IMG/VR virus record: IMGVR_UViG_3300008113_000485 | Coordinates: 1 to 29,839 of that record | Origin: a virus | Length of the DNA stretch: 29,839 nucleotides | Direction: 5' to 3' (one strand) | Shown: positions 94-29,700 of the stretch, piece by piece | Numbering within the stretch: the stretch's first letter is position 1 | How the letters are laid out: each line of letters begins with the position of its first letter | Program-made: the position numbers and the translations under genes | The notes under the pieces: model-generated | What the model was told of the DNA's origin: nothing | What the model saw: the letters and a program-made list of their open reading frames with translations, nothing else | The model's database searches: none

Positions 94-317
94 AAGAACG
101 GTAGTCCTGATTTTTTAGTTGTTTCTAAATTTTCTTTAATGATCTCTCCGATGATCATGCGTTCATCGTTTGTTAAATTAAGGACGTCTTGATAGCTCAT
201 GCCGCGCATATACCAGCACATCTTCAAGAGATCTTTCTTGAGCTCCTGTCCTTCTTTTTCTAATGCCTTAACATACTGTAGGATCTCCGGACGGGAGAGA
301 TTTAAGATCCTACTCCG
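90..317 (-). CDS. gp51-like baseplate hub assembly frame, probably expressed as a -1 frameshift extension of gp26
   Basis: Read on the - strand, this frame encodes 75 residues, beginning RSRILNLSRPEILQ, passing through KMCWYMRG and ending ENLETTKKSGLPFF. The C-terminal pattern resembles the small gp51-type hub assembly protein that follows gp26 in many T4-like phages; this is recalled family knowledge, not a search result. No ATG, GTG or TTG occurs in this frame before the middle of the protein, so it has no ordinary start. It lies in the -1 frame of gp26 and is entered at a slippery site (317-323) backed by a stem-loop (278-313). The likely product is a gp26-gp51 fusion of about 360 aa. The alternative is initiation on a rare ATC at 308-306. 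The reading frame is certain, the name moderate, and the expression mode inferred. Confidence 0.6.
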   Translation of the reverse strand, partial: RSRILNLSRPEILQYVKALEKEGQELKKDLLKMCWYMRGMSYQDVLNLTNDERMIIGEIIKENLETTKKSGLPFF

Positions 318-323
318 AAAAAA
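278..323 (-). promoter_or_regulatory. Candidate programmed -1 ribosomal frameshift signal
   Basis: On the - strand the gp26 frame contains the heptamer T TTT TTC (323-317), which fits the X XXY YYZ slippery rule in the correct phase. Three bases later a perfect 9-bp stem begins: GTAGGATCT (313-305) pairs with AGATCCTAC (286-278) across an 18-base loop. The loop contains the gp26 TAA stop (304-302) and a smaller nested TCTCC/GGAGA pairing. Slippage by -1 leads straight into the start-less gp51-like frame. The spacer is shorter than the usual 5-9 bases, so the lowest pairs may need to open. Confidence 0.6.
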
Positions 324-1212: not shown

Positions 1213-1240
1213 TGCGCATTTTTTGAGGTCTAAATTAATT

Positions 1241-4200
1241 ATGGCAGATGTATATGGCGCTATTGGTGATCAACCAGTAGAACTAAACAACGCAGCAACC
1301 GAAGCAACGCTCAAAGCTCTGCTTGCCACAATGACGGCTATGATGAATAGTCAGTCAAAAAACACTAAAAAAGACAAAAAGATACAGACTGATCTTGAAG
1401 CAGAACTGCGCAGACTAGCCAAAGCTAGCAAAGACTCATCTAAAGCTAGAGAAAACGAGACAGCAGCAGTCAAAGACAACACCGAAGAGCAGACAAAAAA
1501 TACCGCTGCTCAAAAGAAAGCAGCAGCCGCACAGAAAAAATATATTGAAGAATTAGAAGATTCAATTGTTATTTTAGAAAAACTAGCAAATGGATTGGAG
1601 CAAGCTGTTACTGGCCTATCAAGTATTATGACCAGTTTTTCTACAATGGGCAATAGTGTAACTGCTGCTGCGGCAACGTTTAATCATATTCCGATAGCAG
1701 GTAGACTGCTATCTAGTGTGTTTGGAGCTGTTGCCCAAGCAGCTGATCGAAGTATGACAGCGTTTCAAAAATCGGCCAGTGTTGGCGCAAACTTTGGCGG
1801 CAGTATTACTGACATGATTGATTCTGCCACAGGTGCTGGTTTAACTTTTGATGCGTTTAGTGGTATTATTGCAAAGAATGGCGAAAGTGTTGCGTTATTA
1901 GGACAAGGATCAGCTGACGGTGCAAAACGATTAGGCGAGTTGGGTAAACAAATTCGTAAAAGTGGGGTGGCTGATGAGTTGTATCGTATGGGATACTCTA
2001 CCGAAGATATTAACAACGGATTAGCTTCATTTGGTGGTCGACTTGCCAAAGGTGGTGCATTACAAAAAATGACCACTGAACAGATTGCATCTGTTACTGG
2101 TAACTATCTCAAAGAATTAAATGCAGTAGCAACGCTTACTGGACAAAGTAAAGAAGCATTGCAAGAACAAGAAAATGCTCGCATGGCCGATGCGCAATAT
2201 TTAAATTTAAAAAATAAGTTAGATGCTGATGGTCAAAAGAATTTAGAAATATTGATGGCTAGTATTCCAGCAGGAATGCAAGCAGGAGCCAAAGAAGTTT
2301 TAGCCACAGGCACAGCTACTACAGAAGCAGGACAACAATTTTTAGTCTTTATGAAAAATTCTGGTAGAAGTTTACAATCGTTAGGTAAAACTGCCGAAAG
2401 AACCGGAACTATTACTACAGATGCGGTAATACAAAATGCAAATCTTATACAATCCGAAGGAAAAGCATTATCAAAATCTAGTCTAGGAGGAGTTGCTGCA
2501 AAATTTATTCCAGAACTAAACGGAATAATGGTAGCATCAAATACACTTGCATCACGTCAAACAGATTTGGGCACAGAGATAAAAGGACAGATTGCCGCAG
2601 CAGCAGAGCGAAAGAAACAAGAAAAAGAATTGCTAGATAAAGGATTAGATCCCGCATCGATGGAGAAGTTTAAGCAACAGATTGCTGCAACCAGCAACGA
2701 ATTTACAAAAATGCTAGCAGGAATTTTACCAGCAATGATGGGAGCATTTACGCTACTTGCAGATTTTACTAAAACGTTCTTGGTACCTATATTTGTGTAT
2801 CTAGCGACAAATATTAAAGCAGTTGTTGCTACTATGATTGCTCTTAAAGTTGCCCAGTTGGCATATAAAGCATCGCTTGCAATTGAAAGAGCCAAAGTAA
2901 ATCAACGAGGCTCGTCGGCGCTAAATCCAATGCATGTAACTACCAACGGTAAAGGCGGCCTAGGTGACGGACCTGATGGTAAAGATAAAGATGGTAAAGA
3001 TAAAAAAGGATCTAAAGGATCTAAAGGTCTAAAGACACTTGGCCGACTCGGCGGCGGTGTTGCTGCGGTAACTGCAATTGCAGGAATGGGAATGGAATTA
3101 AGCGAGATTAGCGACGAGTTAAAAGATGGAAAGATATCTGAAGACCAAGCTAAACAAAAAAAATCAGAAGCAGTCGGAGGCGGCGTAGGTAGCGCAGCAG
3201 GCGGAGCAGGTGGTACACTGGCAGGCGCAACTATTGGTACATTAATATTCCCAGGCGTCGGTACTGTGATCGGTGGTATCATTGGTGGTGTATTAGGTAG
3301 TAAGGGTGGGGACTTCCTTGGTAGAAAAGTTGCTGGCAAATACGCTGAGCCAAAATCAGATGTAAAGGGATTAGGCAAAGTTGCAGCGCAATTTGAATCT
3401 GGTGGAAATTCGGGTTCAGTATCAACTGGGCACGGCGATCACGGTGGCAAGAGCTACGGATCGTTCCAGTTATCAAGCAAAACAGGTGACGTTGACAAGT
3501 TCTTACAAAAATCTGGGTATGCAAGTCAATTTCAAGGTATGCAGGTTGGGTCAGCAGCATTTGACGCTCAGTGGAAAAAACTTGGGAAAGAAGATACTAA
3601 ATTTGGCGAAGCTCAATCAGCACACGCTAAAACAACTCACTATGATCCGCAAATGGCAAAATTACAAAACAGCGGAATTGATTTGTCTAAAAAAGGGTTT
3701 GGCGTACAAGAAGCAATTATGTCAACTGCCAATCAATATGGTGCAAACACTGAAACTATAATCAAAGCTCTTAAAGGTAAAGACACCAATAAGATGAATG
3801 ATAAAGAAATCATTGACGCTATTCAAGACTATAAAGCAGAAAATGTTAAAACAAACTTTAGAAGCAGTTCGGAAGCAGTTAAGGCCGGTGTTACAAAACG
3901 AATTAATCAAGAAAGACAAGCATTATACAAAGCAAATGAGGGCGGTGGTGTAGTAGTCAATGATCCGGTAACAGCTAAAAAAGAAGACAAGCCAACCACA
4001 GCAGTTGCAACAGCTAAAACAGAAAATACACCAAAAGCTTCAGATACTCAAACAGCATTAGCTAAACCAAAAGAAGCCAAAGAACTTGTAAAAGCCACAG
4101 CGGTAAACACTCCAACTGCTTCTGCGGTCCAAACAGCATTAGCTAAACCAAAAGAAGCAGAAGCTGCTTCATCAACTGGCCTTGCAGCTAATCCAATGGA

Positions 4201-4417
4201 ATCATTGAAACAAGGGCTAGCAGGTACTCAACAAACAGCACTGGGAGGACCTACTGGTCCTGCCGGCTCTCAAGAATCACCGGCTGTACTACTTTCTAGC
4301 TTAAATAGTAAGATGGAACAATTAATTAAAATTCAAATTGGTGCAAAAGACACTGGAGAAAAACAATTAAGAAAGACTGGCAACACAGACATGTTCACTA
4401 ACATAGCTACTGCTTAA
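1241..4417 (+). CDS. Tape-measure-like virion protein with peptidoglycan-hydrolase-like domain
   Basis: I chose the ATG at 1241 (1058 aa) because GAGGT precedes it; an in-frame TTG at 1223 has no ribosome site. In order: Lys/Glu/Ala-rich coiled-coil-like region (residues 25-125); Gly/Ala-rich helical body; hydrophobic stretch (about 490-545); Lys/Gly linker; glycine-zipper segment (about 645-700); then a lysozyme/transglycosylase-like domain starting FESGGNSG (Glu about 719, the likely catalytic acid) followed by GDHGGKSYGSFQLS; and a Thr/Ala/Lys-rich tail with a duplicated TALAKPKEA. Membrane-like segments, coiled coils and an internal muralytic domain together are typical of tape measures that also open the cell wall during DNA entry. 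It is divergent from hub gene 26 and directly upstream of the portal. It could instead be a separate virion-associated lysozyme. No match to T4 gp29 is visible by eye. Confidence 0.6.
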   Translation: MADVYGAIGDQPVELNNAATEATLKALLATMTAMMNSQSKNTKKDKKIQTDLEAELRRLAKASKDSSKARENETAAVKDNTEEQTKNTAAQKKAAAAQKKYIEELEDSIVILEKLANGLEQAVTGLSSIMTSFSTMGNSVTAAAATFNHIPIAGRLLSSVFGAVAQAADRSMTAFQKSASVGANFGGSITDMIDSATGAGLTFDAFSGIIAKNGESVALLGQGSADGAKRLGELGKQIRKSGVADELYRMGYSTEDINNGLASFGGRLAKGGALQKMTTEQIASVTGNYLKELNAVATLTGQSKEALQEQENARMADAQYLNLKNKLDADGQKNLEILMASIPAGMQAGAKEVLATGTATTEAGQQFLVFMKNSGRSLQSLGKTAERTGTITTDAVIQNANLIQSEGKALSKSSLGGVAAKFIPELNGIMVASNTLASRQTDLGTEIKGQIAAAAERKKQEKELLDKGLDPASMEKFKQQIAATSNEFTKMLAGILPAMMGAFTLLADFTKTFLVPIFVYLATNIKAVVATMIALKVAQLAYKASLAIERAKVNQRGSSALNPMHVTTNGKGGLGDGPDGKDKDGKDKKGSKGSKGLKTLGRLGGGVAAVTAIAGMGMELSEISDELKDGKISEDQAKQKKSEAVGGGVGSAAGGAGGTLAGATIGTLIFPGVGTVIGGIIGGVLGSKGGDFLGRKVAGKYAEPKSDVKGLGKVAAQFESGGNSGSVSTGHGDHGGKSYGSFQLSSKTGDVDKFLQKSGYASQFQGMQVGSAAFDAQWKKLGKEDTKFGEAQSAHAKTTHYDPQMAKLQNSGIDLSKKGFGVQEAIMSTANQYGANTETIIKALKGKDTNKMNDKEIIDAIQDYKAENVKTNFRSSSEAVKAGVTKRINQERQALYKANEGGGVVVNDPVTAKKEDKPTTAVATAKTENTPKASDTQTALAKPKEAKELVKATAVNTPTASAVQTALAKPKEAEAASSTGLAANPMESLKQGLAGTQQTALGGPTGPAGSQESPAVLLSSLNSKMEQLIKIQIGAKDTGEKQLRKTGNTDMFTNIATA
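4049..4158 (+). repeat. Two identical 29-bp direct repeats in the tape-measure-like gene
   Basis: Bases 4049-4077 and 4130-4158 are identical over 29 bp and encode QTALAKPKEA twice. The repeats are 81 bp (27 codons) apart, so recombination between them would keep the frame and change the length of the flexible tail. Confidence 0.85.
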
Positions 4418-4431
4418 TTGGATAAAAAAAT

Positions 4432-6141
4432 ATGAGTTGGAAAAAATACTTTACCCCTGTAAGCGTTAACAATCAAGCTGGAGGATTTAGCCCAATTAGT
4501 GGCGGAAGTCGTCCCGGACCAGCACATACAAACTACAGTTCTTATCTTCCTGATGTTTATGCAGGATCACCAAATCGTGTTGAACGATATATTCAATATG
4601 ATACAATGGACATGGATTCAGAAGTTAACGCTGCTTTAGATATTCTTGCAGAGTTCTGCACTCAAAAAGACAAAGAAAATAATACACCTTTCCAGTTGTT
4701 CTTTAAAGGAAAACCCACAGCTACTGAAGTTAAAATTCTAAAAGAAAGTCTTCAGAAGTGGGTTAAACAACAACAATTTGATATTAGAACATTCCGTGTT
4801 GTGCGCAATACTTTCAAGTACGGCGACTGTTTTTTCATCCGCGATCCTGAAACTAAAAAATTATTATACATTGATCCAGTAAAAGTTACCAAAGTAATTG
4901 TTAATGAATCCACAGGCAAAACTCCTGAACAATATGTATTAAAAGACATTAATTTTAATTTTGTATCATTAGTAGCTACACAACCACATAATACAACAAA
5001 TACAAGTCCGAGCGGAACTAGCTCTTATACCAGTGGAGGTGGGTTTGGCAAAGGCATGGTAGGCGATGCTGCTCGCCCTCCAGGAACACGTTTTCAAAAT
5101 CAAACAAATGAAATTACTGTAGATGCAAAACACATCGTACATATTAGTTTGAGTGAAGGGTTAGATCAAAACTTTCCGTTTGGTAATAGTCTACTGGAAT
5201 CAGTATTCAAAGTCTACAAGCAGAAAGAATTGCTTGAAGATGCAATTATTATCTATCGTATACAACGAGCTCCTGAGCGTAGAATTTTCTATGTTGACGT
5301 GGGTAACATGCCGGCACACATGGCCATGGCATTTGTAGAACGTGTTAAAAACGAAATCCAACAAAGACGTATTCCTAGCTCAACAGGTGGTGGCAATAAT
5401 ATGATCGATGCCAGTTACAATCCGTTAAGTGTCAACGAAGATTACTTCTTTCCGCAGACAGCAGAAGGTCGTGGATCCAAAGTTGAAACACTTCCAGGTG
5501 GTACCAACCTAGGTGAAATTACAGATCTGCGATACTTTACCAACAAGCTATTCCGTGCTTTGCGCATTCCAAGCAGCTACTTGCCAACATCTGTTGATGA
5601 TGCTAGTAACACAGTAACTGACGGAAAAGTAGGCACAGCATACATTCAAGAGCTACGTTTCAATGAATATTGCAAACGCCTACAGAACTTAATTACTCCA
5701 ACTCTAGACTTAGAATTTAAAATTTGGATGGAATCAAACGGTGTAAACATTGATTCAAGTTTATTTGAATTACGTTTTAATCAGCCGCAGAACTTTGCTG
5801 CATATCGTCAATCAGAGCTTGATACTGCTCGTGCAGCAACATACAGTACAGTTGCAGAAATCCCACATCTTTCTAAACGTTTTGCACTAAAACGCTTCTT
5901 AGGTTTATCAGAAGAAGAGATTAAAGAAAACGAATTGATGTGGAGAGAAGAGAACGGTAATAAACTAAAAATTGTAGGAGATGCCGCTAGCGAAATGAGA
6001 GGTATTGGCATCACTCCGTCAACTATCAGTGCAGAAGCAGGTGCAGCAGACGCAGAAGCACCCGACAATTTAGCTGCAGAAGTTCCTGCAGAAGGTGCAG
6101 AAACCTCACAGCCTGTGGCACCACCTCCAGCCGGTCAGTAA
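4432..6141 (+). CDS. 20: gp20 portal vertex protein
   Basis: This 569-aa protein has the hallmarks of the T4 gp20 portal: N-terminal YDTMDMDSEVNAALDILAEF, the clip/stem region with FRVVRNTFKYGDCFF, HIVHISLSEG, IYRIQRAPERRIFYVDVGNM, and LPGGTNLGEITDLRYF followed by the LRIPSSYLP helix. Twelve copies form the ring at the unique capsid vertex that starts prohead assembly and through which terminase packs DNA. The C-terminus is an Ala/Glu/Pro-rich extension (about residues 530-569). T4 gp20 is 524 aa. The gene begins 14 bases after the previous stop; the upstream GGAT is a poor ribosome site, so translational coupling is likely. Identity is secure. Confidence 0.96.
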   Translation: MSWKKYFTPVSVNNQAGGFSPISGGSRPGPAHTNYSSYLPDVYAGSPNRVERYIQYDTMDMDSEVNAALDILAEFCTQKDKENNTPFQLFFKGKPTATEVKILKESLQKWVKQQQFDIRTFRVVRNTFKYGDCFFIRDPETKKLLYIDPVKVTKVIVNESTGKTPEQYVLKDINFNFVSLVATQPHNTTNTSPSGTSSYTSGGGFGKGMVGDAARPPGTRFQNQTNEITVDAKHIVHISLSEGLDQNFPFGNSLLESVFKVYKQKELLEDAIIIYRIQRAPERRIFYVDVGNMPAHMAMAFVERVKNEIQQRRIPSSTGGGNNMIDASYNPLSVNEDYFFPQTAEGRGSKVETLPGGTNLGEITDLRYFTNKLFRALRIPSSYLPTSVDDASNTVTDGKVGTAYIQELRFNEYCKRLQNLITPTLDLEFKIWMESNGVNIDSSLFELRFNQPQNFAAYRQSELDTARAATYSTVAEIPHLSKRFALKRFLGLSEEEIKENELMWREENGNKLKIVGDAASEMRGIGITPSTISAEAGAADAEAPDNLAAEVPAEGAETSQPVAPPPAGQ

Positions 6142-6147
6142 TAAATA
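6140..6147 (+). promoter_or_regulatory. Late promoter-like AATAAATA at the gp20 stop
   Basis: AATAAATA overlaps the portal stop codon and ends five bases before the ATG at 6152. A T4-type start point would fall at or inside that ATG, so the transcript would be leaderless for the next gene but would serve the genes beyond it. Confidence 0.35.
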
Positions 6148-6151
6148 CATT

Positions 6152-6400
6152 ATGCTCCTACGTGAATTCTTTTATTTTAACGACAATACCAATGACTTTT
6201 CAGTCGATCAACGATATGAAAACTCTAAAGACAGTTCTGTGGTCAAAAAATCAGACACACGTAAACTACGTTTAACTCTTAAACAAATAAACCAGCTGCG
6301 AATACAAAGCGAAGCTCATGATTTTGAAGAAGAATCAGAAAGAGCTTTTATACAACAAATGTACGGTACCCCAGTTGAAGCAGACCAACCCGCAGAATGA
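6152..6400 (+). CDS. Small conserved-position protein between portal and core genes (gp67 position)
   Basis: The 82-aa product starts MLLREFFYFNDN and contains a charged helical middle (KLRLTLKQINQLR), then an acidic stretch and QQMYGTPVEADQPAE. It sits between gp20 and the acidic core protein, where T4 has the 80-aa prohead core protein gp67, so a head-core role is plausible, but I see no clear sequence match to gp67. I rejected a longer in-frame start at 6095 because it lies inside the portal gene and the relative-like start MLLREFF is at 6152. There is no ribosome site in front of the ATG. Its 3' end overlaps the next gene. Confidence 0.7.
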   Translation: MLLREFFYFNDNTNDFSVDQRYENSKDSSVVKKSDTRKLRLTLKQINQLRIQSEAHDFEEESERAFIQQMYGTPVEADQPAE

Positions 6401-7010
6401 ACCCGCTTTCGTATTAGGTAATGGCAGAAGTAGACTACACGTAGATGCTCCTTCGCTATTATTGCACGGCACTGTATATGCTTGTAATGCTGTTTACAGA
6501 GAATTTGATCCTGACTTTTTAATAGCTGTTGATGTTAAGATGGTTAACGAAATCATTTCAGCAGGATATCATAAAACCCACAGTGTTTGGTCCAATCCTA
6601 ATAAAGGAATTAACGCTAAGAGCGGAATTAATTACTTTCATCCACATAAAGGATGGAGTAGTGGTCCAACAGCATTGCACTTTGCCTGCGAGCGTGGACA
6701 TAAAGAAGTGTACATATTTGGGTTTGACTACCAAGGAATTGGCGGAAAATTCAATAATGTATATGCTAATACTTTTAATTACAAACGCAGCGAAGACGTT
6801 GCAACTTATCACGGAAATTGGTTGAGCCAAACAGAAAAAACAGTTAGAGATCACAGATATACTCAGTTTTATCGAGTTATAGAATCCGGCGGGTTTATTC
6901 CTGACAAACTGGCAAACTCAAACATAACACATATATCCTTTGACGAATTTGCACAAAAGTTTCCGGGTACTATATATGCAGATGAAACCATTCAAAAAAG
7001 TATCATTTAA
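6318..7010 (+). CDS. Phage protein with Rossmann-like NGRSR motif (DUF115/MptE-like?), start uncertain
   Basis: The recognisable protein begins PAFVLGNGRSRLHVD and continues with VYACNAVYREFDPDFLIAVDVKM, GPTALHFACERGHKEVYIFGFDY and a C-terminal DEFAQKFPG. The N-terminal VLGNG loop and the alternating hydrophobic strands suggest a Rossmann-type nucleotide-binding fold like that of DUF115/MptE-related proteins, common as unassigned genes in aquatic T4-like phages. Function is unknown. The only in-frame ATG (6318) is deep inside the previous gene and adds about 29 unlikely residues. An ATGA overlap at 6397-6400 would be the natural start (MNPAFVLGNG), but one C is missing from the following C run, putting it out of frame. 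See the finding. Confidence 0.7.
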   Translation: MILKKNQKELLYNKCTVPQLKQTNPQNEPAFVLGNGRSRLHVDAPSLLLHGTVYACNAVYREFDPDFLIAVDVKMVNEIISAGYHKTHSVWSNPNKGINAKSGINYFHPHKGWSSGPTALHFACERGHKEVYIFGFDYQGIGGKFNNVYANTFNYKRSEDVATYHGNWLSQTEKTVRDHRYTQFYRVIESGGFIPDKLANSNITHISFDEFAQKFPGTIYADETIQKSII

Positions 7011-15102: not shown

Positions 15103-16278
15103 ATGTCAGGAACTATATCAGATGATGACTTTGGGTTTGGCGGTTCGAGTCAAGGAACAGAACCAAATTATCTTGCAGCATTAGGACGCATCAGCGGTAA
15201 AGCTCTAGCTGACAATCTAGAACGCAATGGTATTGACCTAACATTTAGGAATGGTGGTAACGATCCTGATTTATTGTATCTTGATGTTACCAACAAGCGG
15301 TTAGGTATTAATAGAGAAAGTCCGACATTTTCTTTAGAAATCGTAGGTACATCTAAAGTCACTGACAGTGTGAATGTTAATGGAACATCAGCTAAAATTT
15401 CTAATATTATATTTGGAACCAACGGCACGGTGTCAACCCAAGTGGGCCCAATCAACATTATCCCAGCAGGATTGGACCCGTATATACAATACGGAAAAGT
15501 CTTAACAGACGATTTAGAAATTAATGACAACTATATTAGAGCAAATATAACCAATCAACCTGTTGAAATGTTTGCCCACGGAACTGGAATAGTAGACATC
15601 GGGTCGTCAACAACAGTTACTGGAAATTTACAAATTGTAAGAATTAGCGAAACAGAGCCCGAACTTAGTGGAAATATTACAGCAAACGGTAACGTGCAAT
15701 TCAACGGACAATTTGTAATAGGTGACAGCCCACTAGATACAGTCGCAGTACAAACTGATTTTACGCAGTCGATAATTCCAGGTGCTACTTTAACATACGA
15801 TCTAGGAGCATTGAATAAACGTTGGCGCGACATACATTTTTTATCACTACAAGGTGTTTCAAATATCAATGTTAACAATGCGTATATTGGCCAGGTGTTA
15901 ATTTCTGGAAACGGAATATCAAATTCAGTTAACAATACTGACATAATTTTTGATGCTGGCGGTGTAGGTAAATTGTCATTAGAAGATTTTGATATTATAG
16001 ATTCAGAAATTATTAATATAGCAGGAACACCTACAATTTTAGAATCTACGGGTATTGGTTATTTTGAAATTGATGATACCAATGCTATAGTTATTCCTGT
16101 GGGTTCGGATAGACAACGATCATTTACTGAAGTAGGTGAAACCCGTTGGAACACAGATCGAGGCTACCTAGAGTGTTTTGATGGTAATGTTTATCAAGTA
16201 GCATCAGGAGGCGGAGCTGTTGTAACACCAAGACTCATGGAAGAGTTTGGTAATTTATATGCCCTCGTACTAGGCTAA
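15103..16278 (+). CDS. Fibre-like virion protein, paralogue of the protein at 16399
   Basis: The 391-aa protein shares its plan with the next gene: LGRISGKALADNLERNGIDL near the start, LLYLDVTNKRLGINRESP, a series of beta repeats (GTGIVDIGSSTTVTGNLQI), YDLGALNKRWRDIHF, and a C-terminal RYNTD-like module (TRWNTDRGYLECFDG) before a helical LMEEFGNLYALVLG end. It has an extra acidic/Gly-rich N-terminal segment of about 25 residues absent from the paralogue. The conserved end (ALVLG/ALMLG) may be an interaction tag. It is likely a virion fibre or baseplate-attached component. The ribosome site is weak (GGAT). Confidence 0.68.
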   Translation: MSGTISDDDFGFGGSSQGTEPNYLAALGRISGKALADNLERNGIDLTFRNGGNDPDLLYLDVTNKRLGINRESPTFSLEIVGTSKVTDSVNVNGTSAKISNIIFGTNGTVSTQVGPINIIPAGLDPYIQYGKVLTDDLEINDNYIRANITNQPVEMFAHGTGIVDIGSSTTVTGNLQIVRISETEPELSGNITANGNVQFNGQFVIGDSPLDTVAVQTDFTQSIIPGATLTYDLGALNKRWRDIHFLSLQGVSNINVNNAYIGQVLISGNGISNSVNNTDIIFDAGGVGKLSLEDFDIIDSEIINIAGTPTILESTGIGYFEIDDTNAIVIPVGSDRQRSFTEVGETRWNTDRGYLECFDGNVYQVASGGGAVVTPRLMEEFGNLYALVLG

Positions 16279-16398: not shown

Positions 16399-17451
16399 AT
16401 GGCTATTGGTCGTATTAGCGGTCCGCTCTTAAAGCAGAATCTCATCCGAGACGGTGTGAATCTAGCCTTTGAGACCGACCTTTTATATCTTGATGTTGTA
16501 AACAGCCGAGTTGGTGTTAATACCACTTCGCCGCAACACGCCTTAGACATAGTTGGTACTGCACGTACTACAAATTTACAAGTTACAAATCAATTAAATG
16601 TTGGCAACTTTACAGTTACCGGCAACACCATTTCTAGCACATTGCCTACAATCAGTTTTGTTGCATCAGGCGGTGAAACAACAGCATATCATTCTCGATT
16701 AACAGTCGACGACATCGACATCAGAGCCAACACAATTTCTACCACAGTATCGAACGCTAATTTAGAACTTAAAGCAAACGGTACTGGAATCATTGATATT
16801 CAAAGCAGTTCTAGAATTACCGGCAATCTCACAGTTACTGGAAATATCAATGCAGGCGGCAACATTACAATTGGCGGAAATCTTATTATCGGTGACGCAC
16901 TTACTGATACTATAACAATCAATGCTAGCCTCAACAGCAGTTTAATTCCCGAAGCGTCTAATTTGTACGACCTCGGTTCTACAACTTTCAAATGGCGTAG
17001 TGTCTATGCTAATAATTTAACCACTGACAGTTTAACTTTAAATTCTTTTCAAATTGGTGATATTTCTATTACCGGTAATAGAATTAGTACTGTAACTAAT
17101 CAAGATTTAATTCTTAGCGCCAGCGGCACAGGTAGAATTTCTATTGGAAATTTTGCTATTAGAGGAAACACTATTACAAATACTGCAAATAACGCAGTTT
17201 CTGTAATTACTCATACAGGCAACGGATATCTTAAAATTAATGGCACAAATGGTTTTGTATTGCCACGTGGCGGATCAGGTGACAGACCAACACTATATGC
17301 TGTTGAGGGAATGACAAGATACAATACAGATTCAAAAGCCATTGAAATTTGGGACGGCACAACATGGGCTAGTCCGTCAGGTACATCAGGAGCGGTATCA
17401 GAAGGTTCCGCTAACGATATTTCAGTAGCATTCGCATTAATGTTAGGATAA
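16399..17451 (+). CDS. Fibre-like virion protein
   Basis: The 350-aa protein begins MAIGRISGPLLKQNLIRDG and contains LLYLDVVNSRVGVNTTSPQ, a pattern common in phage fibre and autotransporter-like chaperone-domain proteins (GIGTTSP-type). Many short beta repeats follow (TGNLTVTGNINAGGNITIGG), then YDLGSTTFKWRSVYA and the module LPRGGSGDRP followed by GMTRYNTDSKAIEIWDG, ending VAFALMLG. It is paralogous to the gene at 15103. It has a strong ribosome site and its own late promoter and leader. It is probably an abundant fibre-like virion component. Confidence 0.7.
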   Translation: MAIGRISGPLLKQNLIRDGVNLAFETDLLYLDVVNSRVGVNTTSPQHALDIVGTARTTNLQVTNQLNVGNFTVTGNTISSTLPTISFVASGGETTAYHSRLTVDDIDIRANTISTTVSNANLELKANGTGIIDIQSSSRITGNLTVTGNINAGGNITIGGNLIIGDALTDTITINASLNSSLIPEASNLYDLGSTTFKWRSVYANNLTTDSLTLNSFQIGDISITGNRISTVTNQDLILSASGTGRISIGNFAIRGNTITNTANNAVSVITHTGNGYLKINGTNGFVLPRGGSGDRPTLYAVEGMTRYNTDSKAIEIWDGTTWASPSGTSGAVSEGSANDISVAFALMLG

Positions 17452-18181: not shown

Positions 18182-21100
18182 ATGGCAGAATTTAAATTAA
18201 GTAGATTAAAATTTACATGGCTAGGAGCATGGAGCTCTTACGCCAGATATAATCCAGATGATATTGTTAGCTTCGGCGGACAATCATACGTTTGTTTAGA
18301 AAGTCATGCTGCGTCAAACGACTTTTATGGCGACTTAAATTATTACAACAATGACGTACCACCGTTATTGGTTCCTAAATGGGAACTAATTGCCAGCGGT
18401 AATTCGTGGCTAGGTGATTGGATTGCAAGTACATATTATCGCGTTGGCGATATAATCAAGAGAGGCGGCGCCCTTTACATCTGTACTTTTGCACATACAT
18501 CTCCAGCAGCAACTACTGGTAACTCTTCAGGCGAGCAGGCATTTTCGGTAACTGGTGTAGATGCAAGCAATGACCCAGTACAATTATGGGCTCAATATTT
18601 TTCCAGCCAATCATGGATGAAAGATTGGACAGTTACTACCTACTACAAAATCAATGACGTTGTTCGTTACGGTGGTAGAATATTTAAATGTATTTCAGCG
18701 CACACGTCAGCTGGAGATCCTAAAGACGGACTAGAAGCCAGTTTATCTGATTGGGTTACAATATCAATTGTTGATGCATGGAGAGGGAGCTGGGCGTTAG
18801 ACACCAAGTATCGATTAAACGATCTTGTTAAAGATGGCGGCAATGTATATCAGTGTGTTACACCACACGTTTCTGCAGTTGATGTTGCCATAGGGCGTGA
18901 AGGCGATGCCTCTAAATGGGCATTGTTGCACAACGGTGTTCAATATGTTGGAGTATGGTCTGGCGGAATTGCAACATACAAAATTAACGATGTTGTTAAG
19001 TACGGTTCATACTTGTATCAGTGTAGACAATTTCACACAGCCGGTACAACTTTTGATTTGTCATACTGGGAAATATATTGTCCAGGTGTACAATTTGATC
19101 AAGTATGGCAAGGTGCGGTATTAGATGGAACTACAGTAATTATACCACCAACTGTTTATCAGACAGGCGATATTGTAAAATATGGTGGAAATTTATATGT
19201 GTCGTTGCTTACAAATATAAATCAAAATCCTGCAGTTACCACAGCATGGGCAAAATTATTTGACGCTGTTCGAGTAACAGGCGAGTGGGATCAATATCAC
19301 CCTTATTTTCCAGGCGATGTTGTTCGTCGTGGGGGTAATGTATATACAGCAATATTAGACAACTTAAATCAAGATCCAGATTTTTTTAACGACGACACAA
19401 CAACAAACTCAGTTTATTGGGATTTGATCATTACTGGTAGTAAGTGGGCAGGCATATGGATCCCAGGACGTACATATGTATCAGGCGAAACTGTTGTCTG
19501 GGTATCAAGTTCATACATTTGTCAAGACAAGCATTTATCTGATCAAGGTAACAGACCTGATGACGATTACTACGAAGACGGTAGTACTATTGTAGGAAGA
19601 TATTGGTTAAAAGTTACCAATGGTAACAAAATAAATCGATTAAAGAAACGCGGAGACTTGCGTACATTTGGTCCAACACAAGATGGTAGTACTGTAGGAT
19701 ATACAACTATAGAAATTGGCACACCGGGACACGTTGCACAAGCGACTAACGGATTAGTTACTTGGCGTCCGATGTTCGAAACCCCAAAAGTGTACTATGT
19801 TGCAATGACAGGAAAAGATGATCCATTGGCTGGAACATCTCCAAATGCTCCATGGCGCACTTTACGATACGCTTTAGAAAATGTTACCGGATATGCAACT
19901 GTCAATGTTAGAACCGGAGTATTTGAAGAAGTGTTGCCATTGCGTGTTCCAGCATTTGTTGCTGTTCAAGGCGACGAACTACGATCAACAGTGATAAAGC
20001 CAGCAAATGGAATAATTGATCAAACTTATTATGATCAAATTATTGCTGCTATAGAATATATTGGTAATATATCAGAATTTGTTGTAAGAAATATACCAAT
20101 CGGAGCAGATGATCCAGTCGCTCCAACAACATTGTTGTACGGAGAAATTCCTCAAGACTTTTCAGCGGGAGCTGCAACAACAGATGAATCATTAATCATT
20201 ACTAGTTTAATTTCACAAATAGTTAATAGACTAGAAACTTTTTCATCGATATCCATTTCCGGATCAAACTCACTAACAGCAACCGCTAATCGTGTGAAAG
20301 CATACAACACGATGATAAACAACAAAGCCTTTATCAAGAACGAAGTTACTTTGTATATTGAAAGTGTGTTTATTGATTCCACCGCAGTGTCGCTTCCCGA
20401 AAGATGGAGTGATGACCTAGATCGAATTATTAATGGCATTACCTATGACATTGGATATGTTGGCAATTACAAAACTGCTGAGGCATCGACCTTCTTTGTT
20501 AATGCGTTCGACTACGGTAATAATAAAACTGAAAATATGTTTTTGTTACGTGATGGTACAGGATTACGTAACATGACATTGGTTGGGTTAGAAGGAACAC
20601 TGGGAGAGCTAAGTATCTATCTAACACGTCGCCCTTCTGCAGGTGCATATGCCAGTTTAGATCCAGGTTGGGGTCCAAGTGACTCAACAGTATGGGTAGG
20701 ATCTAAATCACCGTATATTCAAAACGTTACCACATTCGGTACAGGGTGTATTGGCCTTAAAGTCGATGGCGACATACATGGCGGTGGCAATCAAACTATT
20801 GTTTCTAACGACTTTACGCAGGTGTTATCAGACGGAATTGGTGTGTGGTGTAATGGCGCTGGACGAACTGAAGCTGTGTCAGTTTTCACTTATTACAACT
20901 ACATCAGCTATCTATGCACTGCTGGCGGAAAGATTCGTGGAACAAACGGGAATAGTTCATATGGAACATTTGGCGCTGTTTCTGAAGGATTCAGCACAAC
21001 AGAAAATCCAATTACTGCAACTGTTAATAATCGTTATTATCAAGCAGATGTTGCACAAACATTAATTGGCGCCAACGGAGACATTTTAAAAGTATTTTAT

Positions 21101-23740
21101 AGTGATGCTGGTGTAAATTACACCAACGCTACTTACAATTTGGTAGGCGCCGGCAACGATGCTGTTATCATTGGTGATGATTTCCGTGACGGCGCTGTAT
21201 ATGAAGTTAGAATTGTAACAGCAATGGATTCAACAATAGCTGGTGGTTCAAGCTATATGTTCAATACAAATACTTCACAAGGCGGCGATACTATTTCAAT
21301 CACGCTGGCCGGATCAAATGATAATACTGCTGCAGAATATCGCACATTACGATTATTAATTACCAGCGGAACAGGCACAGGACAATATGGTTATATTGCT
21401 GAATACGACGATGTGGGCAAAGTTGCTTATATCGGAAAAGAATCAAAAGCTTCGTTGACTGTAGTATCAAGTACTACTGGTCTGGCTGGTAGTTTGTACA
21501 CACTTACATCAGTTAGTGGATTAGCAATTAACGACAGAGTGATTTTTACTGGGACCAAATTTGGTAACATACAAGATTTCACTACCTATTACATCAAGAC
21601 CATTGACACAGGTACAAAGAGAATTACATTGAGTCTTAGCTCAGGCGGCGCTACTTATAGTAGTTCGTTAGGAACAGGAACAATGACTTTGCACTTTGTT
21701 GGATGGGAACATATTGTTCCAGGAACTACTATTTTATCAGTGCTAGATAAAAGTTCTAATTACAGCATTGAACCAAGAGTAACTTTTAGCAGCCCTGGAT
21801 TTTCAGCGGCTACCGGTGGTGTACTACCGACCGAAAGCCAGTGGTTAAGTGTTGCATCAAGCGATAGTGTTTATGTAGCAGTAGGGTTGGCATTAAATAC
21901 CGCTGCGTACTCAACAGATGCGCAAACATGGTTAACTGCTAGTTTGCCTTATACTGGATTATGGTCTAGAGTTAGATATGTCAATGGACAATTTATTGCA
22001 TTTGCTGAATTAGGAAAAGCAGCTAGATCTGTGAACGGATTATCATGGTCAGCAATAACAATGCCAAGCACCAAGGTAGACTGGCGCGATGTTACCTATG
22101 GAAATGGCAAATATGTTGCTATTGCCAACGGCGGCACCTCAGCAGCAACCTCAACAGACGGAATTACTTGGACAGCACAAACACTCCCCGAGGGCGCAGA
22201 ATGGAATTCTATAGAGTACGGTAAAGGTAAATTTGTAGTTGCTGCACAAAGTGATTCAACTATAACAAACTTATTGTACAGCACTACAGGACTATCTGGA
22301 TCTTGGACTATCGGTTCGGTTCCAAGTGGAATCATAGCACTAGCATACGGGAACAACAGATTTGTTGCCATTTCCGGTGGATACATTGGGGCTAACACTT
22401 CCTACACCAGTGTTGACGGAGTAACGTGGAGCAGTGCGGTAATAATTCCAACAGCAAACTGGCAAGACCTCACTTATGGTCAAGGATTGTTTATGGCTGT
22501 TGCTACCGGTACTAATACTGTTATTACGTCACAAGATGGTATTTCATGGACCACACAATCTATACCAAGTTCAGGTACTTGGTCGGCAGTGACTTTTGCA
22601 AATATTAACAAGCCAGGTAAATTTCTTATCGTGGCTGGCGGCACTGGAAACAGCACAGCTACTATATTGATAACAACTGGAGTAACTGCACAGGCTCGTG
22701 TCTATGTTGTAGGTAATAAAATATCTCAAGTTAGGTTGTGGGATACAGGTAGTGGATACACTAGCACTCCAGCAATTACACTTACAGATCCAAACAATGT
22801 TAACGATGTTTCACTAGAAGTTAGAAGAGGAAACGGAGTTCTAGGTGTGCCTACTATTGAAAATGGCGGGACCGGATATGCACAGACTAGTACAACAATT
22901 ACTATTACAGGTAATGGTTATAAAGATCAGTATCAAATTGGATCATTTTTAGTTGTTAGCGGATTGACTCGTATTCCAGGACCTGGAGATAACGTTTCGA
23001 TTGGCGGCATTAATGATTACACTTACAAATTATTAAATTGTTTAATTTTAGGTGGGTCACTAGGCAACTACACAGCAAGATTGAATATTGGTAAAGATTT
23101 AAACATTGAAGAATCCCCAGAACATGGAATTCCAGTGTCGATTAGGCAATTTTACAGTCAATGTCGATTAACAGGACACGATTTCTTAGATGTTGGGCTA
23201 GGTAACTTTATCCAAACAAATTATCCTAACACACTATTTCCAAACGGAACTGTGGTTTCTCCTGAAAACGAAGTTCAAGAAGCCAACGGTGGTCGTGTAT
23301 TCTACACAACCACTGATCAAGACGGTAACTTTAGAGTGGGTGAATTATTTGCTGTTGAGCAGTCAACTGGTATTGTTACATTAAATGCTCAATTCTTTGA
23401 ACTGCAAGGTTTAGAAGAATTGCGATTAGGCGGAATTGTTGTAGGCGGAACGGGTGTTGTTGTTCGTGAGTTTTCAACAGATGTAACATTTACATCTGAT
23501 TCGAACAATGTTGTACCGACACAAAAAGCAATCAAAGCCTACATTCAACGTAGGGTATCGGGCGGTGGTGCAGATGCAATTACTGGAGGATTAACTGCTG
23601 GAGTAGTTCAGGTAGGATCACCAGATAGACTTACAACAACAGACGGATCGGCTTTAATTTTTAGAAATAAGGTCAACTTGACAGGCGGTATAGATGGCGA
23701 TATGTTAGTTTTAGCATATTTTACATCTAGTGGGGCGTAA
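18182..23740 (+). CDS. Giant fibre/adhesin protein 1 with carbohydrate-binding-like repeats, beta-helix and propeller-like repeats
   Basis: 1852 aa. Residues 8-470 hold eight copies of a roughly 50-residue unit (WxGxW, TxY, GDxVKYGG, YxCxxxH) resembling CBM5/12-type carbohydrate-binding modules. A pectate-lyase-like beta-helix start follows at about 535 (KVYYVAMTGKDDPLAG, PWRTLRYALE, GDELRSTVI), with WGPSDSTVW and NDFTQVLSDGIG further on. Residues 1091-1170 are an inserted beta domain. Residues 1219-1494 carry seven units of WxxVxYGNGxFVA followed by S-DGxTW, as in a seven-bladed propeller. The C-terminus (1700-1852) has YTTTDQDGNFRVGELFAVEQ and NNVVPTQKAIKAYI. It is likely a virion adhesin binding or cutting surface sugar. 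It starts MAEFKL, with GAGGA overlapping the end of the previous gene. Enzyme activity is not shown. Confidence 0.8.
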   Translation: MAEFKLSRLKFTWLGAWSSYARYNPDDIVSFGGQSYVCLESHAASNDFYGDLNYYNNDVPPLLVPKWELIASGNSWLGDWIASTYYRVGDIIKRGGALYICTFAHTSPAATTGNSSGEQAFSVTGVDASNDPVQLWAQYFSSQSWMKDWTVTTYYKINDVVRYGGRIFKCISAHTSAGDPKDGLEASLSDWVTISIVDAWRGSWALDTKYRLNDLVKDGGNVYQCVTPHVSAVDVAIGREGDASKWALLHNGVQYVGVWSGGIATYKINDVVKYGSYLYQCRQFHTAGTTFDLSYWEIYCPGVQFDQVWQGAVLDGTTVIIPPTVYQTGDIVKYGGNLYVSLLTNINQNPAVTTAWAKLFDAVRVTGEWDQYHPYFPGDVVRRGGNVYTAILDNLNQDPDFFNDDTTTNSVYWDLIITGSKWAGIWIPGRTYVSGETVVWVSSSYICQDKHLSDQGNRPDDDYYEDGSTIVGRYWLKVTNGNKINRLKKRGDLRTFGPTQDGSTVGYTTIEIGTPGHVAQATNGLVTWRPMFETPKVYYVAMTGKDDPLAGTSPNAPWRTLRYALENVTGYATVNVRTGVFEEVLPLRVPAFVAVQGDELRSTVIKPANGIIDQTYYDQIIAAIEYIGNISEFVVRNIPIGADDPVAPTTLLYGEIPQDFSAGAATTDESLIITSLISQIVNRLETFSSISISGSNSLTATANRVKAYNTMINNKAFIKNEVTLYIESVFIDSTAVSLPERWSDDLDRIINGITYDIGYVGNYKTAEASTFFVNAFDYGNNKTENMFLLRDGTGLRNMTLVGLEGTLGELSIYLTRRPSAGAYASLDPGWGPSDSTVWVGSKSPYIQNVTTFGTGCIGLKVDGDIHGGGNQTIVSNDFTQVLSDGIGVWCNGAGRTEAVSVFTYYNYISYLCTAGGKIRGTNGNSSYGTFGAVSEGFSTTENPITATVNNRYYQADVAQTLIGANGDILKVFYSDAGVNYTNATYNLVGAGNDAVIIGDDFRDGAVYEVRIVTAMDSTIAGGSSYMFNTNTSQGGDTISITLAGSNDNTAAEYRTLRLLITSGTGTGQYGYIAEYDDVGKVAYIGKESKASLTVVSSTTGLAGSLYTLTSVSGLAINDRVIFTGTKFGNIQDFTTYYIKTIDTGTKRITLSLSSGGATYSSSLGTGTMTLHFVGWEHIVPGTTILSVLDKSSNYSIEPRVTFSSPGFSAATGGVLPTESQWLSVASSDSVYVAVGLALNTAAYSTDAQTWLTASLPYTGLWSRVRYVNGQFIAFAELGKAARSVNGLSWSAITMPSTKVDWRDVTYGNGKYVAIANGGTSAATSTDGITWTAQTLPEGAEWNSIEYGKGKFVVAAQSDSTITNLLYSTTGLSGSWTIGSVPSGIIALAYGNNRFVAISGGYIGANTSYTSVDGVTWSSAVIIPTANWQDLTYGQGLFMAVATGTNTVITSQDGISWTTQSIPSSGTWSAVTFANINKPGKFLIVAGGTGNSTATILITTGVTAQARVYVVGNKISQVRLWDTGSGYTSTPAITLTDPNNVNDVSLEVRRGNGVLGVPTIENGGTGYAQTSTTITITGNGYKDQYQIGSFLVVSGLTRIPGPGDNVSIGGINDYTYKLLNCLILGGSLGNYTARLNIGKDLNIEESPEHGIPVSIRQFYSQCRLTGHDFLDVGLGNFIQTNYPNTLFPNGTVVSPENEVQEANGGRVFYTTTDQDGNFRVGELFAVEQSTGIVTLNAQFFELQGLEELRLGGIVVGGTGVVVREFSTDVTFTSDSNNVVPTQKAIKAYIQRRVSGGGADAITGGLTAGVVQVGSPDRLTTTDGSALIFRNKVNLTGGIDGDMLVLAYFTSSGA

Positions 23741-23797: not shown

Positions 23798-26700
23798 ATG
23801 GCTGAATTTAAATTAGGTAGAATTAGATTTGTATGGAAAGATCAGTGGACAACTGGAACAACATACTACAAAGACGACGTCGTTAATTATGGCGGTAAAA
23901 CATTCCTTTGCGTAGTAGGACATACTGCTGCTGCGGATTTTTATACCAACTTAGATAACGTTCCAACAAAATGGAATCAATTTTCAGACGGTCAAGTATG
24001 GAAAGGAAACTGGACTGCATCTAGTACATTATATAAAATTGGCGATATTGTAAAATATGGCGGCCTAGTTTATATTTGTATAGATGGTCACGCAAGTCAA
24101 TCTACGCTCGAACTTGATCAAAGTAAATGGGATCTATTTGCCGAGTCACTTGACTGGAAGGGCAATTGGGCTATCAACATAACTTACAAGGTCAATGACG
24201 TTGTTAAATACGGCGGATCTGTATATCTTTGTAATACTGCTCACACATCTGCAGCAAATACTACAGCAGGACTTGAAGCCAACTCCAGCAGCTGGGATAC
24301 CTATTCACGCGGTATAGAATGGAAAGGCAATTGGGCTACTAGCACACGTTACAAACTTGGCGACGTAATAAAATATGGTGCCACAACTTATGTGTGCAAC
24401 ACATATCACACATCTAATGCTTCTGCTGCCAGTGGACTAGAAGTAGATCAAAGCAAATGGGATTATTTTAATCAAGGCATTGAATATAAAGGTGATTGGA
24501 GCGGGTCGACAGTTCGTTATAAAGTTAATGACGTTGTTAAAAATGGCGGCGGCACATGGATTTGTGTAACCAGTCATACAAGCACAGCAAGTTTTGTAAC
24601 TGATCAAGCCAATTGGAATAAATTTGTTGAAGGTGTACAGTATCGCACAAACTGGTCATCAGTTAATTCATATCAACCAGGTGACATTGTAAAGTATGGC
24701 GGAAATAATTATATTTCTAAAACAGCGCACATTGGTTCGGCCGGAAGCCCACCATCAACAAACACAACAGACTGGTCATTATTTGCTACAGGATTTAGTC
24801 TTGTAGGCGATTGGAGTAACGGTACTGCTTATCGTATTGGCGAAATTGTTCGCAACGGTGGGTATACATATGTTGCATTACTTGATAACCAATCACAAAA
24901 ACCACCAAATGCCACATACTGGTCAAAATTAAACGAAGGTATCAAATGGCGCGGTGCTTGGTTAACTGGAACAGCATACGAATTAGGCGATGCAATCAAA
25001 GACAGCACAAACAGTTATATTTGCATCCTTACACATACTGCTGGAACACCAAACAAGCCAACAACTGACATTGCTGGAACATATTGGAATTTATTAACTG
25101 GCGGTAACGAAGAAAGCGTTCTAACTACCACTGGAGATTTAGTATACTATGGTGGCGCAGGCGCTACACGTTTGCCAGTTGGTGATGCAGGTCAAGTGCT
25201 TGCAGTTGAAAACGGATTACCTGCATGGACCTATTTTGGTCGTGTAGCAAAAGTATTTTATGTTGGACCTAACGGCGTTAACAGTCCAGCACCAACTTAC
25301 GGGTTAACTATCGATCAGCCTTTTGCAAGTTTAAGATACGCACTTGAACAAATTGAAAATGGTTATCAAAATGCTAATGCAGGATTCCTATTAAAAAATA
25401 ATAGACAGTTTATTCAGAAAGAAATTGTTGAATACATTGACTATCAAATTGCCAATGCAGTAAGCCCGTTTGTTGGACTAAGCTACATTAAAGCCACATG
25501 CCAACGTGATATGGGACTTTTAGTTGACGCAATTATTCATGATCTAACTCACAGCGGAAATGTCAAAGTTATTGAAGCTGCTAGAACCTATTATAATACA
25601 CTAGGCACTGGTTATATTACAACACCGTTTGGCACACAAGTTGCACAAACAGTTGCCGCTATCAATTACGGTCTTACATTGATGGGTAATATACTAGCAA
25701 ACACTACTCCTGCAAGCAATTATCAAACATTAAATGGTATCGGCTCTGGCGACAGAATTAAACAGTATATCAATACTAGCTATACTGCTGAAAGTGGAAC
25801 CACCACTCTAGCAACAGCATTAACAGCAGTAGTAACTGATGCGTTAACTGCCGGCAACACCAACAGTTTACCAGTAGCAGATATTCCAGGATATACAGTA
25901 TTTGTAAAAACTGGACAATTCTATGAAGTATTACCAATGCGTGTGCCAGCAAATACCGCCATTGTTGGTGACGAACTTCGCTCTTCAAGAATTAGTCCAG
26001 CAGGAAAAATTATTGCAACTAATGATAAAGTCAAGTCAGTATCGGCTCTTCAAAGATTACAAGCAATCACTGATGAAATTATTGTCAACACAACAATTAC
26101 TCCTACAACAGGAAATACAGCAACTCAAGTTACCACAGCACAGATTGCAGGTAGCGTGGGAAGCTCAACAGCAGTAACGTCGGTACAGAATAATACTACT
26201 GAAATTAGAGACATTTTAACTAATGGTATTGGGGCCGCGAACTCATATGTTTACCCAGACCCATCAGGGTATGGCAGTGGGTATAGTAATGCTCGCAGAT
26301 TAATTCTTGCTAACAAAGCATTTTTAGTTGACGAAGTTAGCACTTGGATTCTTGCACAAATTGCAGGAAGCGTTAGCCCGTTTGTAGGATTTACCTATAC
26401 AGGCACACGCAGAACTAAATGCGAACGCGACGTTGGCTATATTGTTGATGCCTTAGTGTATGATTTAACCTACGGCGAAACAAGCGGTTGTAATTTGGCC
26501 ACACAAATTGTGGCTCGTTCATATTATTCATATGGTGTATTTGTTGAGCCAACTGTAGAAAAAGCACCGGCATTGGCTGTGCAAAATCGTATCAAAGACA
26601 TCATTGATAATATTGCCACAGGCAACACAGCAGGTTGGACAAAAACAACAGCATTAAGTCAAGATGTATCAGGAACACCTGGTTCTGCTCCAGCAGCAAC

Positions 26701-29700
26701 ATTTGCCCAAGCACGTATTCAGGAAGTATACGACACTATCAACACTGGCACAACACCAACCACTATCGCTCCAAGTACAGCATGGGTATCAAGTGCATTG
26801 GTAACTGCTGGCGCAGCATTAGCTACTGCTAAAGCAGATATTCAAACGCATGCAACTGACTATGTTGATGTAAACTATCCAACATTAAAATATACTAAAG
26901 CTACATGTGCTCGAGATGTCGGTTATATGGTTGATGCATTAATGTATGATCTAATGTTTGGATCAAACTTCTTGTCAATTCAATCTGGTCTATCATATTA
27001 CAGAGGTACAGCTAGCGCACAGGTAGTAATTGCTAATCAACTAGCTGCAACCAATGCAATTATTAATTTTGTTTCTAAGAAAGCATCGCTATTTGCTGCA
27101 TCGGGCGCAGTAGTTCTTGCAGATAACTTATGGACAGACATTATTGGTTATGTCAACACTGGCACACGCCCAATAGTAACCGGCTCTGTAAAACCAACAA
27201 TTGAGTTATCAATGCTCAATGGTGCTGAAAATTTAAGATTAAACGCAGCATTTTTAGCAGCAGAAGCAACAGCATACATTGTTAATACAAACAAATCAAC
27301 AGTTACAGCCACAACTGGTTCAACTACTGATACGCTAACTGGCGACACTACTTGGATGGTAGTGGGCGATACCGTTAGATTTACAGGTACAGTGTTTGGA
27401 GGTGTTGCTCTCAATACAACTTATTATGTTGTTAACATTGGCGGTGGCACAACATTTAAAATCAGCGATACTTTAGGCGGAGCAGTAAAAGATCTGTCTA
27501 CAGCATCTGGTTCAATGACTGTAACTTATTACTTTAATCAAGCAAGATGTCAAAATGATGTCATTAACTATGTAAATGCCATAGCAGATGATCTAGTAAA
27601 CACAGGTAACTACAATTCTGTAATGGCCGCACGTTATTACAGAAGCGCATTAACAGGTTCTAAACTTGAAGATATGTACTATGTACGTAATGGCGCTGGC
27701 ATCCGCAATCAAACATTGCTAGGATTAGATGGTAGTTCTGATGGTAATACTACTGCTTATCAGTCTCCATTAACTGCGGAGCCAAATGAATACGGAACTA
27801 AACGTCCAAATGCAGGCGCTTACGTTTCTCTTGACCCAGGATGGGGTCCAAGCGATAGCAGAGTATGGGTCACAAACAAATCGACTTATGTACAAAACGT
27901 AACAACATTTGGTATTGGTTGCGTAGGACAAAAAATTGACGGATCATTACACGCAGGTGGTAACGATTCTATTGTATCAAACGACTTTACACAAGTACTA
28001 TCAGATGGTATTGGTGCATGGGTTACTAACTTAGGCCGTGCTGAACTTGTTTCTGTATTCTCATACTATAACTACATTGGTTACCTAGCTGAGAACGGTG
28101 GTAAGATTCGTGCTACAAACGGAAACAACTCCTACGGTACGTTTGGTGCTGTTGCAGAATACATCGATATTAGCGAACAAGAAGTTACTGGTAATGTTAC
28201 CAATAGACTTGCTGAAGCAGGAGTTGCCAACGTAATGACCAGCGGCGATGTTGTATATGCTTTAGAGTATAATAATGCAGGATCTGAATACAGCTCTGCG
28301 GCTTACACATTTTCTGGCTCAGGAATTAGTGTAGCCGCAGTTGGCGACGAATTCCGTGATGGCAGTGTATTCCAAGTTCGTTTGGTTGATCCAGGCGATT
28401 CAACAGGTGGTGGTGGATACAATTATCTAACATCTTCTAACACTGCTCAAGGCGGAACGACAACACAAATTACACTAGCGGCTGCTGATAATCAAGCAAG
28501 TGCGGCATATGTTGGCATGTTTATCTACTTGACAGCAGGTGTAGGCGCTGGCCAGTTTGGTTATATCACAGCTTACAATGCAGCAAGTAAAGTAGCTTTG
28601 GTTTCTAAAGAATCTACAGGAACGGCTGGATGGGATCACGTAGTTCCAGGAACAGCTATCGAAGCTGCTCTTTCTGTAACAACAACTTATACAATTACTC
28701 CAAGATTAACATTTACCGAACCTCCATTTACAACATCAACATCAACATTGCCAAGTTCTCAAAATTGGACTGACGTTGCCTATGGTGACGGTACTGGTTC
28801 TTACACCAGTATTTCTGCAACTGGTGGCGCAGGTACATTGGCCACATTTGATGTTACTCGTAGAGAAGGAGTCTACACTGTTGCTGTTAATGTTCCAGGC
28901 GTTCTATATGTTGCTGGAAATACATTAACAATTCTAGGTACAAGTTTAGGTGGTGCAACACCAGCTAATGACCTTACAATTACTGTTGCTACCATAGCTT
29001 CGGGTAGTAACGGTGTTGCTACAATAACAAGTAGTGGTACAGCAGTAACACAAAACTATGTGGCTATTGCTTACGGAACAACCGCAGCAGCAACATCAAT
29101 AAACGGCACAACTTGGGTTGCAATGACAATGCCAGCGGCCCTTAACTGGACTGCGATAGATTACGGTACTGTGGCAGGAGTAGGTTACTATGTGGCAGTT
29201 GCTTCAGGATCTACAAATGCTTACTACTCTACAAATGGTACTACCTGGTCCGCTGGATCTGTTGGTGCAGGAGCATGGTCAGACATTGCTTACGGTAATG
29301 GATCATTTGTGGCCATTGCTCAAGCATCGGTCTCATCAACCACTTATGCAAGAACAACAAACGGTGGAGTGACTTGGACTGCAAGTACATTTGCAGCTGG
29401 ATCAACAGCGATTGCATACGGTGGTGGAAAATTTGTTACAGTGCAAGGTGGCGGCAGCAGAAATTCTGCGTATTCAATTAATAATGGTGGTGCATGGACC
29501 GTAGTTCAACTGCCAACTAACAATGATTCGTCTAACTCTAACTGGGTTGACATTGCATACGGTAATGGCAGATTTGTTGCAATTGCTGATAATGCAGCAC
29601 AAGCAGCTTATTCATTGAACGGCATTGCATGGACCAGAAGTGTACTACCAAATATCTACGAATGGTCGTCAATTCAATACGGACAAGGTGTTTTCTATGT

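Follow-up and report, generated by a model that had tools for sequence, protein, structure and literature searches.

Ribosomes translating the gp26 homologue of this T4-like phage very probably slip back one base at the end of the gene, yielding a short and a long form of a chaperone. The window analyzed here is the whole 29,839-nt stretch of viral DNA (IMG/VR record IMGVR_UViG_3300008113_000485). Its gp26 homologue ends in a slippery heptamer, T_TTT_TTC, followed by a covarying hairpin and an open −1 frame. The complete explanation, in which −1 frameshifting at T_TTT_TTC with the hairpin would make a short/long chaperone pair for the tape measure protein, was assigned a probability of roughly 0.9 on the basis of comparative sequence analysis.

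The slip site at the end of the gp26 homologue

The gp26 homologue lies at positions 302–1171 on the minus strand and has a predicted product of 289 aa (32.4 kDa), the candidate short tail-assembly chaperone (TAC-N). It matches Pfam PF12322 (T4_baseplate, E = 4.7e-17) and PHROG 150 (baseplate hub, E = 6.7e-19). Four invariant cysteines (C119, C122, C266, and C269) make up two zinc-ribbon-like pairs. A sequence-only reading of the window had pointed to an in-phase heptamer five codons before the gp26 stop. It is present at 323–317 (minus strand) in the phase aaT TTT TTC, with TTC the fifth codon ahead of the TAA at 304–302. Each of the other elements named in that reading was likewise confirmed, and the conservation of the arrangement lies far outside chance.

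A scan of IMG/VR returned 80 loci, 58 of which have non-identical junctions and complete downstream frames; these relatives are about 53–100% identical. T_TTT_TTC is kept in 58/58, lies 12 or 18 nt ahead of the stop, and almost universally has AAT as the codon that supplies its first T. Among 99 conserved, codon-degenerate gp26 residues in the 58 genes, a single codon is used throughout only at the N-F-F of the slip site, AAT TTT TTC (AAT in 56/56, TTT in 58/58, and TTC in 58/58). The top codon at conserved two-fold residues of these genes averages 74%, and Phe overall is encoded by TTT in 76% and TTC in 24% of cases. In five relatives (L060, L065, L074, L075, and L078), the gp26 stop is two codons further downstream, while the heptamer, the hairpin, and the −1 frame remain in register with one another; it is thus the spacing that is conserved, and not the position of the stop. 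A second lineage scan, partly overlapping the first, found T_TTT_TTC with a −1 frame in 60/60 readable loci, and a scan using cyanophage gp26 found the same in 69/69 cyanophage-like loci.

The layout of gp26 followed by a −1 frame also spans cultured jumbo phages of many hosts, cyanophages, and other T4 relatives, with T_TTT_TTC, T_TTT_TTT, or T_TTT_TTG as the heptamer. T_TTT_TTC is found in Sinorhizobium phage Phosso, Agrobacterium Atu_ph07, Pseudomonas MIJ3, Serratia BF, Klebsiella RaK2, Escherichia PBECO4, Vibrio 2.275, Cronobacter GAP32, Salmonella Munch, and Xanthomonas XaC1, and Stenotrophomonas RAS14 has the same layout with T_TTT_TTT. Salicola SCTP-2, Xanthomonas XacN1, Prochlorococcus P-SSM5, Cronobacter S13, Vibrio Vme-32, and the Rhizobium phages LG08 and RL38J1 share the frameshift layout. 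Two separate genes, one short and one long, occur without a slip site in T4, Acinetobacter Stupor and Acj9, Aeromonas AS-gz, and Escherichia Skers.

Homopolymer runs are generally known to be error-prone, and the two frames would also be separated by a one-base mistake made in the T run during sequencing or assembly, or by the decay of a former gene fusion. Sequencing error is excluded because three other assemblies (L002–L004) carry an identical junction; the layout recurs in every relative, cultured phages included, and the −1 frame is under protein-level constraint. We regard both origins as extremely improbable.

One further pair of frames in the window, 6095–6400 and 6318–7010 (plus strand), was considered as a second frameshift and rejected: in most relatives, the conserved start of the second ORF has an in-frame ATG, GTG, or TTG a short way upstream. 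The window copy of this ORF has a TTG and no ATG near the conserved part, and we read the pair as overlapping genes. Elsewhere, two adjacent giant ORFs (18182–23740 and 23798–29839, plus strand; 1852 and over 2014 aa) both start with MAEFKL, carry W..G.W......Y...D.V..GG..Y.C repeats, and have similar later parts; they look like paralogous tail or adhesin-like proteins. ORFs 15103–16278 and 16399–17451 (plus strand) resemble paralogues as well, with a common LLYLDVxNxRxGxNxxSP stretch and similar C termini.

A covarying hairpin downstream of the heptamer

A perfect 9-bp stem enclosing the gp26 stop, as had been proposed from the sequence, was confirmed on the minus strand. Its 5′ arm (GTAGGATCT, 313–305, conserved core 310–305) begins after a 3-nt spacer (316–314) and pairs with the 3′ arm (AGATCCTAC, 286–278, conserved core 286–281), which places the TAA within the loop. 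The window copy of the hairpin folds with −14.1 kcal/mol (z = −1.6), and relatives reach z = −4.5.

Covariation was assessed in an ungapped alignment of 55 distinct sequences. In 88.9% of alignment cells the 9-bp stem is paired, as against 30–53% for slid registers, and its covariation exceeds that of all 500 shuffles. RNAalifold recovers the stem core unaided. When changes were mapped onto the gp26 tree, 12 two-sided compensatory events fell in the true register versus 0–4 in slid registers. One stem pair (columns 29–56) changed four times on this tree, each time in concert, and was never broken. Most changes in the core of the 3′ arm leave the amino acid of the −1 frame unaltered (ATC/ATT, CTA/TTA), so constraint on the protein does not explain them.

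The conserved pairs (28–33/52–57 of alignment A3) start 6 nt downstream of the heptamer, a distance typical of stimulatory structures. The three outer pairs are looser than the core and would sit in the ribosomal mRNA channel. The stem is weak (3–5 bp) in about 8–10 of the 55 relatives, and RNA folding of one relative (L025) gave no significant fold. Since some relatives carry merely a weak stem, the hairpin is probably a modulator of slipping and not an absolute requirement.

In the 69 cyanophage-like loci the hairpin begins 5 nt after T_TTT_TTC and has a mean energy of −13.9 kcal/mol. The ATG used for the annotated gp51 in cyanophage-like loci L107–L186 falls within this conserved hairpin, which could both stimulate frameshifting and mask the start codon. 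Atu_ph07 has a very stable 11-bp hairpin (L083:2352–2400) nearly 20 nt past the heptamer, beyond the usual distance.

The −1 frame and its relation to T4 gp51

The −1 frame (317–90, minus strand) comprises 75 codons plus a stop and ends in TTKKSGLPFF; its putative product (TAC-C) resembles the tail of gp51. Joined to gp26 by frameshifting, it would give a fusion of 360 aa (41.0 kDa). The expectation that this frame is exactly −1 and protein-like was borne out: it is open over 75–76 codons in all 58 relatives, and it varies chiefly at the third positions of its own codons (entropy 0.79/0.54/1.29). The AlphaFold2 model of the domain is all helical (pLDDT 92). Scans of Pfam and PHROG with the 75-aa frame by itself gave no match. 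The domain and the −1 frames of jumbo phages form one family (E = 3.8e-21).

The frame was also said to lack a start codon until its middle. Its first ATG, GTG, or TTG in the window is the TTG at codon 31, and no such codon is conserved among the 58 relatives (best column 15/58). Upstream of the start region of the frame these relatives have no AGGAG and no conserved Shine-Dalgarno sequence. Comparison of the junction across relatives, which the sequence-only reading had suggested, finds heptamer, stem, and missing start codon all conserved. The Atu_ph07 record annotates a gene that begins midway in the −1 frame.

We weighed whether the domain could instead be a separate small protein. Its initiation would be independent or coupled to termination, at an uncommon start codon (for instance ATC 308) or at the ATG that follows the stop in cyanophages. 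The P-SSM5 record does give it a gene of its own, gp51; 64/69 cyanophage-like loci have an ATG 11 nt past the slip codon; and ATC is the third codon of the −1 frame in 42/58 relatives. This codon is variable, however (GTC in 15 and CTC in 1 of the remainder), and together with the missing Shine-Dalgarno sequence its variability led us to reject initiation at ATC 308. The sampled cyanophages bury their ATG in the hairpin; the window lineage has neither a conserved start codon nor an upstream AGGAG; and the frame of MIJ3, which is unannotated, holds no ATG, GTG, or TTG at all. Separate initiation would leave the invariant heptamer and its codon fixation unexplained, and the T4 counterpart, gp51, is an in-frame fusion. 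We consider a separate protein very unlikely and prefer the frameshift fusion.

The relation of this fusion to T4 proteins was traced by profile comparison. T4 gp26 and gp51 are paralogues (E = 3e-17), and the 249-aa gp51 consists of a gp26 paralogue plus a C-terminal domain of the kind encoded in the −1 frame. The earlier description of the frame as "gp51-like" holds for this C-terminal part and fails for gp51 as a whole. Directly, the C-terminal domain of the window matches the gp51 tail weakly, with the position right (E = 0.047), and its comparison with the cyanophage domain is too weak by itself. Fusion profiles were used where the domain profiles were too weak, so that the link to gp51 runs through cyanophage and jumbo-phage intermediates. 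The P-SSM5-type cyanophage fusion aligns with T4 gp51 over its length, and the alignment continues through the slip junction (E = 6e-18). The window/jumbo fusion matches both the P-SSM5-type fusion (E = 1.5e-17) and the T4 gp26 group (E = 2e-11). Foldseek searches of the PDB with models of gp26 (pLDDT 80) and of the C-terminal domain gave no significant match. Solved structures include none from a relative of this family, and the models add no independent evidence.

Like the window pair, T4 gp26 and gp51 are paralogous short and long proteins, and the last ∼45 residues of gp51 correspond to the −1 frame of the relatives. The arrangement differs: T4 has two divergent genes, and its gene 26 ends without a slip site, whereas the window phages have one gene and a putative frameshift. 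We read the two-gene state as probably derived because its distribution is narrow. By a slight margin of confidence we also favor the wider view that the covarying stimulatory hairpin is old in T4-related phages, occurring in this lineage and in cyanophages, that the frameshift is ancestral, and that its loss in T4 and close relatives came with the duplication of gene 26 into a short gene (26) and a long one (51).

Proposed function and comparison with known chaperones

The sequence-only reading had placed a tape-measure-like gene beside gp26. This gene was found at 1223–4417 (plus strand), divergent from the gp26 homologue, and matches tail length tape measure proteins (PHROG 167, E = 4e-14; PHROG 794, E = 3.3e-11). 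A tape measure gene adjoins the gp26 homologue in Klebsiella phage RaK2 too. The window protein has a C-terminal VgrG3-like domain (PF21277, E = 1.8e-60, residues 717–898), of a kind seen in type VI secretion spike proteins. The tape measure protein is the likely client of the chaperone pair.

In the mechanism we propose, most ribosomes would terminate at TAA 304–302 and release the 289-aa short form. A minority would pause at the hairpin with tRNA-Phe on both codons of TTT TTC, slip one base back, and re-pair both tRNAs on TTT TTT. Having bypassed the gp26 stop, they would continue in the −1 frame to give the 360-aa long form, whose helical C-terminal domain would be the equivalent of the T4 gp51 tail. 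By analogy with λ G/GT, both forms would bind and fold the tape measure protein of the adjacent gene and then depart. The sequences themselves show the slip site, the covarying hairpin, the conserved coding −1 frame that lacks a start, and the homology to T4 gp26 and, through cyanophage fusions, to gp51; the slipping, its rate, and the binding to the tape measure protein are inferred.

A frameshift could be real and its products still be components of the baseplate hub. PF12322 and PHROG 150 carry a baseplate hub annotation, and some T4 genetics places gp26 in the hub (PMC3004832). The same source nevertheless counts both gp26 and gp51 among the chaperones of hub assembly, with gp51 not in the final particle, and a short/long pair made by frameshifting next to a tape measure gene is the chaperone pattern. 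A hub role is thus unlikely, and gp26 and its fusion are most likely a short/long tail-assembly (tape-measure) chaperone pair, given that T4 gp51, a paralogue of gp26, carries a C-terminal domain of this kind. In the record of Acinetobacter phage Stupor, both gp26 and gp51 are already annotated as chaperones for tape measure protein assembly. The chaperone role suggested earlier gains from the profiles, which tie the short form to gp26 of T4 and, via cyanophages, the fusion to gp51, and from the short/long tail-assembly chaperones reported to have been identified in T4-like phages (cited in PMC10885494 and PMC12846349).

The long form is unannotated or misannotated in the window lineage and in jumbo phages: it is missed, labelled as a separate ORF, or started midway. 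The analysis corrects the annotation of an essential tail gene across many environmental T4-like and jumbo phages. It also provides a natural panel of frameshift sites that have diverged while carrying a covarying hairpin, on which the contributions of slip sequence and structure to the short:long ratio could be examined.

The λ proteins gpG/gpGT and the P2 proteins gpE/E+E′ are tail chaperones, and the λ slip sequence differs from the T_TTT_TTC of the window. These pairs were reportedly described by Xu and colleagues (2004) and Christie and colleagues (2002). Foldseek comparison with the PDB found no homology of the window proteins to solved chaperones. A visible evolutionary series connects genes 26 and 51 of T4, hub genes that have long been puzzling, to the λ G/GT system.

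Closer counterparts exist, and the earlier supposition that no frameshift had been described for the gp26/gp51 genes of T4-like phages does not stand. Vladimirov, Gautam, and Davidson (2022; Virology 566:9–15), as cited in PMC10885494 and PMC12846349, identified the tail assembly chaperones of T4-like phages. According to the passage of PMC10885494 that cites them, some T4-like phages dispense with frameshifting and have one short gene and one long gene that is a fusion; a later paper cites the same work for poly-T slip sites in T4-like phages. At the Pakpunavirus/Vandenendeviridae locus, an invariant poly-T motif likewise ends the short gene and the −1 frame is never closed, the −1 region being otherwise annotated as a hypothetical gene or intergenic (PMC12846349). 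The motif there is GTTTTT, unlike the heptamer of the window, and the cited passages on that locus mention no hairpin. As these sources present them, the T4-like chaperones likewise have a short form, a long form with an extra C-terminal domain, and, in some phages, a poly-T site. The kind of system is thus known, and the window locus adds a structural detail, the covarying 3′ hairpin demonstrated here. Its lineage is environmental and far from T4. Judged against the portions of the literature cited here, that hairpin and the extension to this lineage and to jumbo phages may be new.
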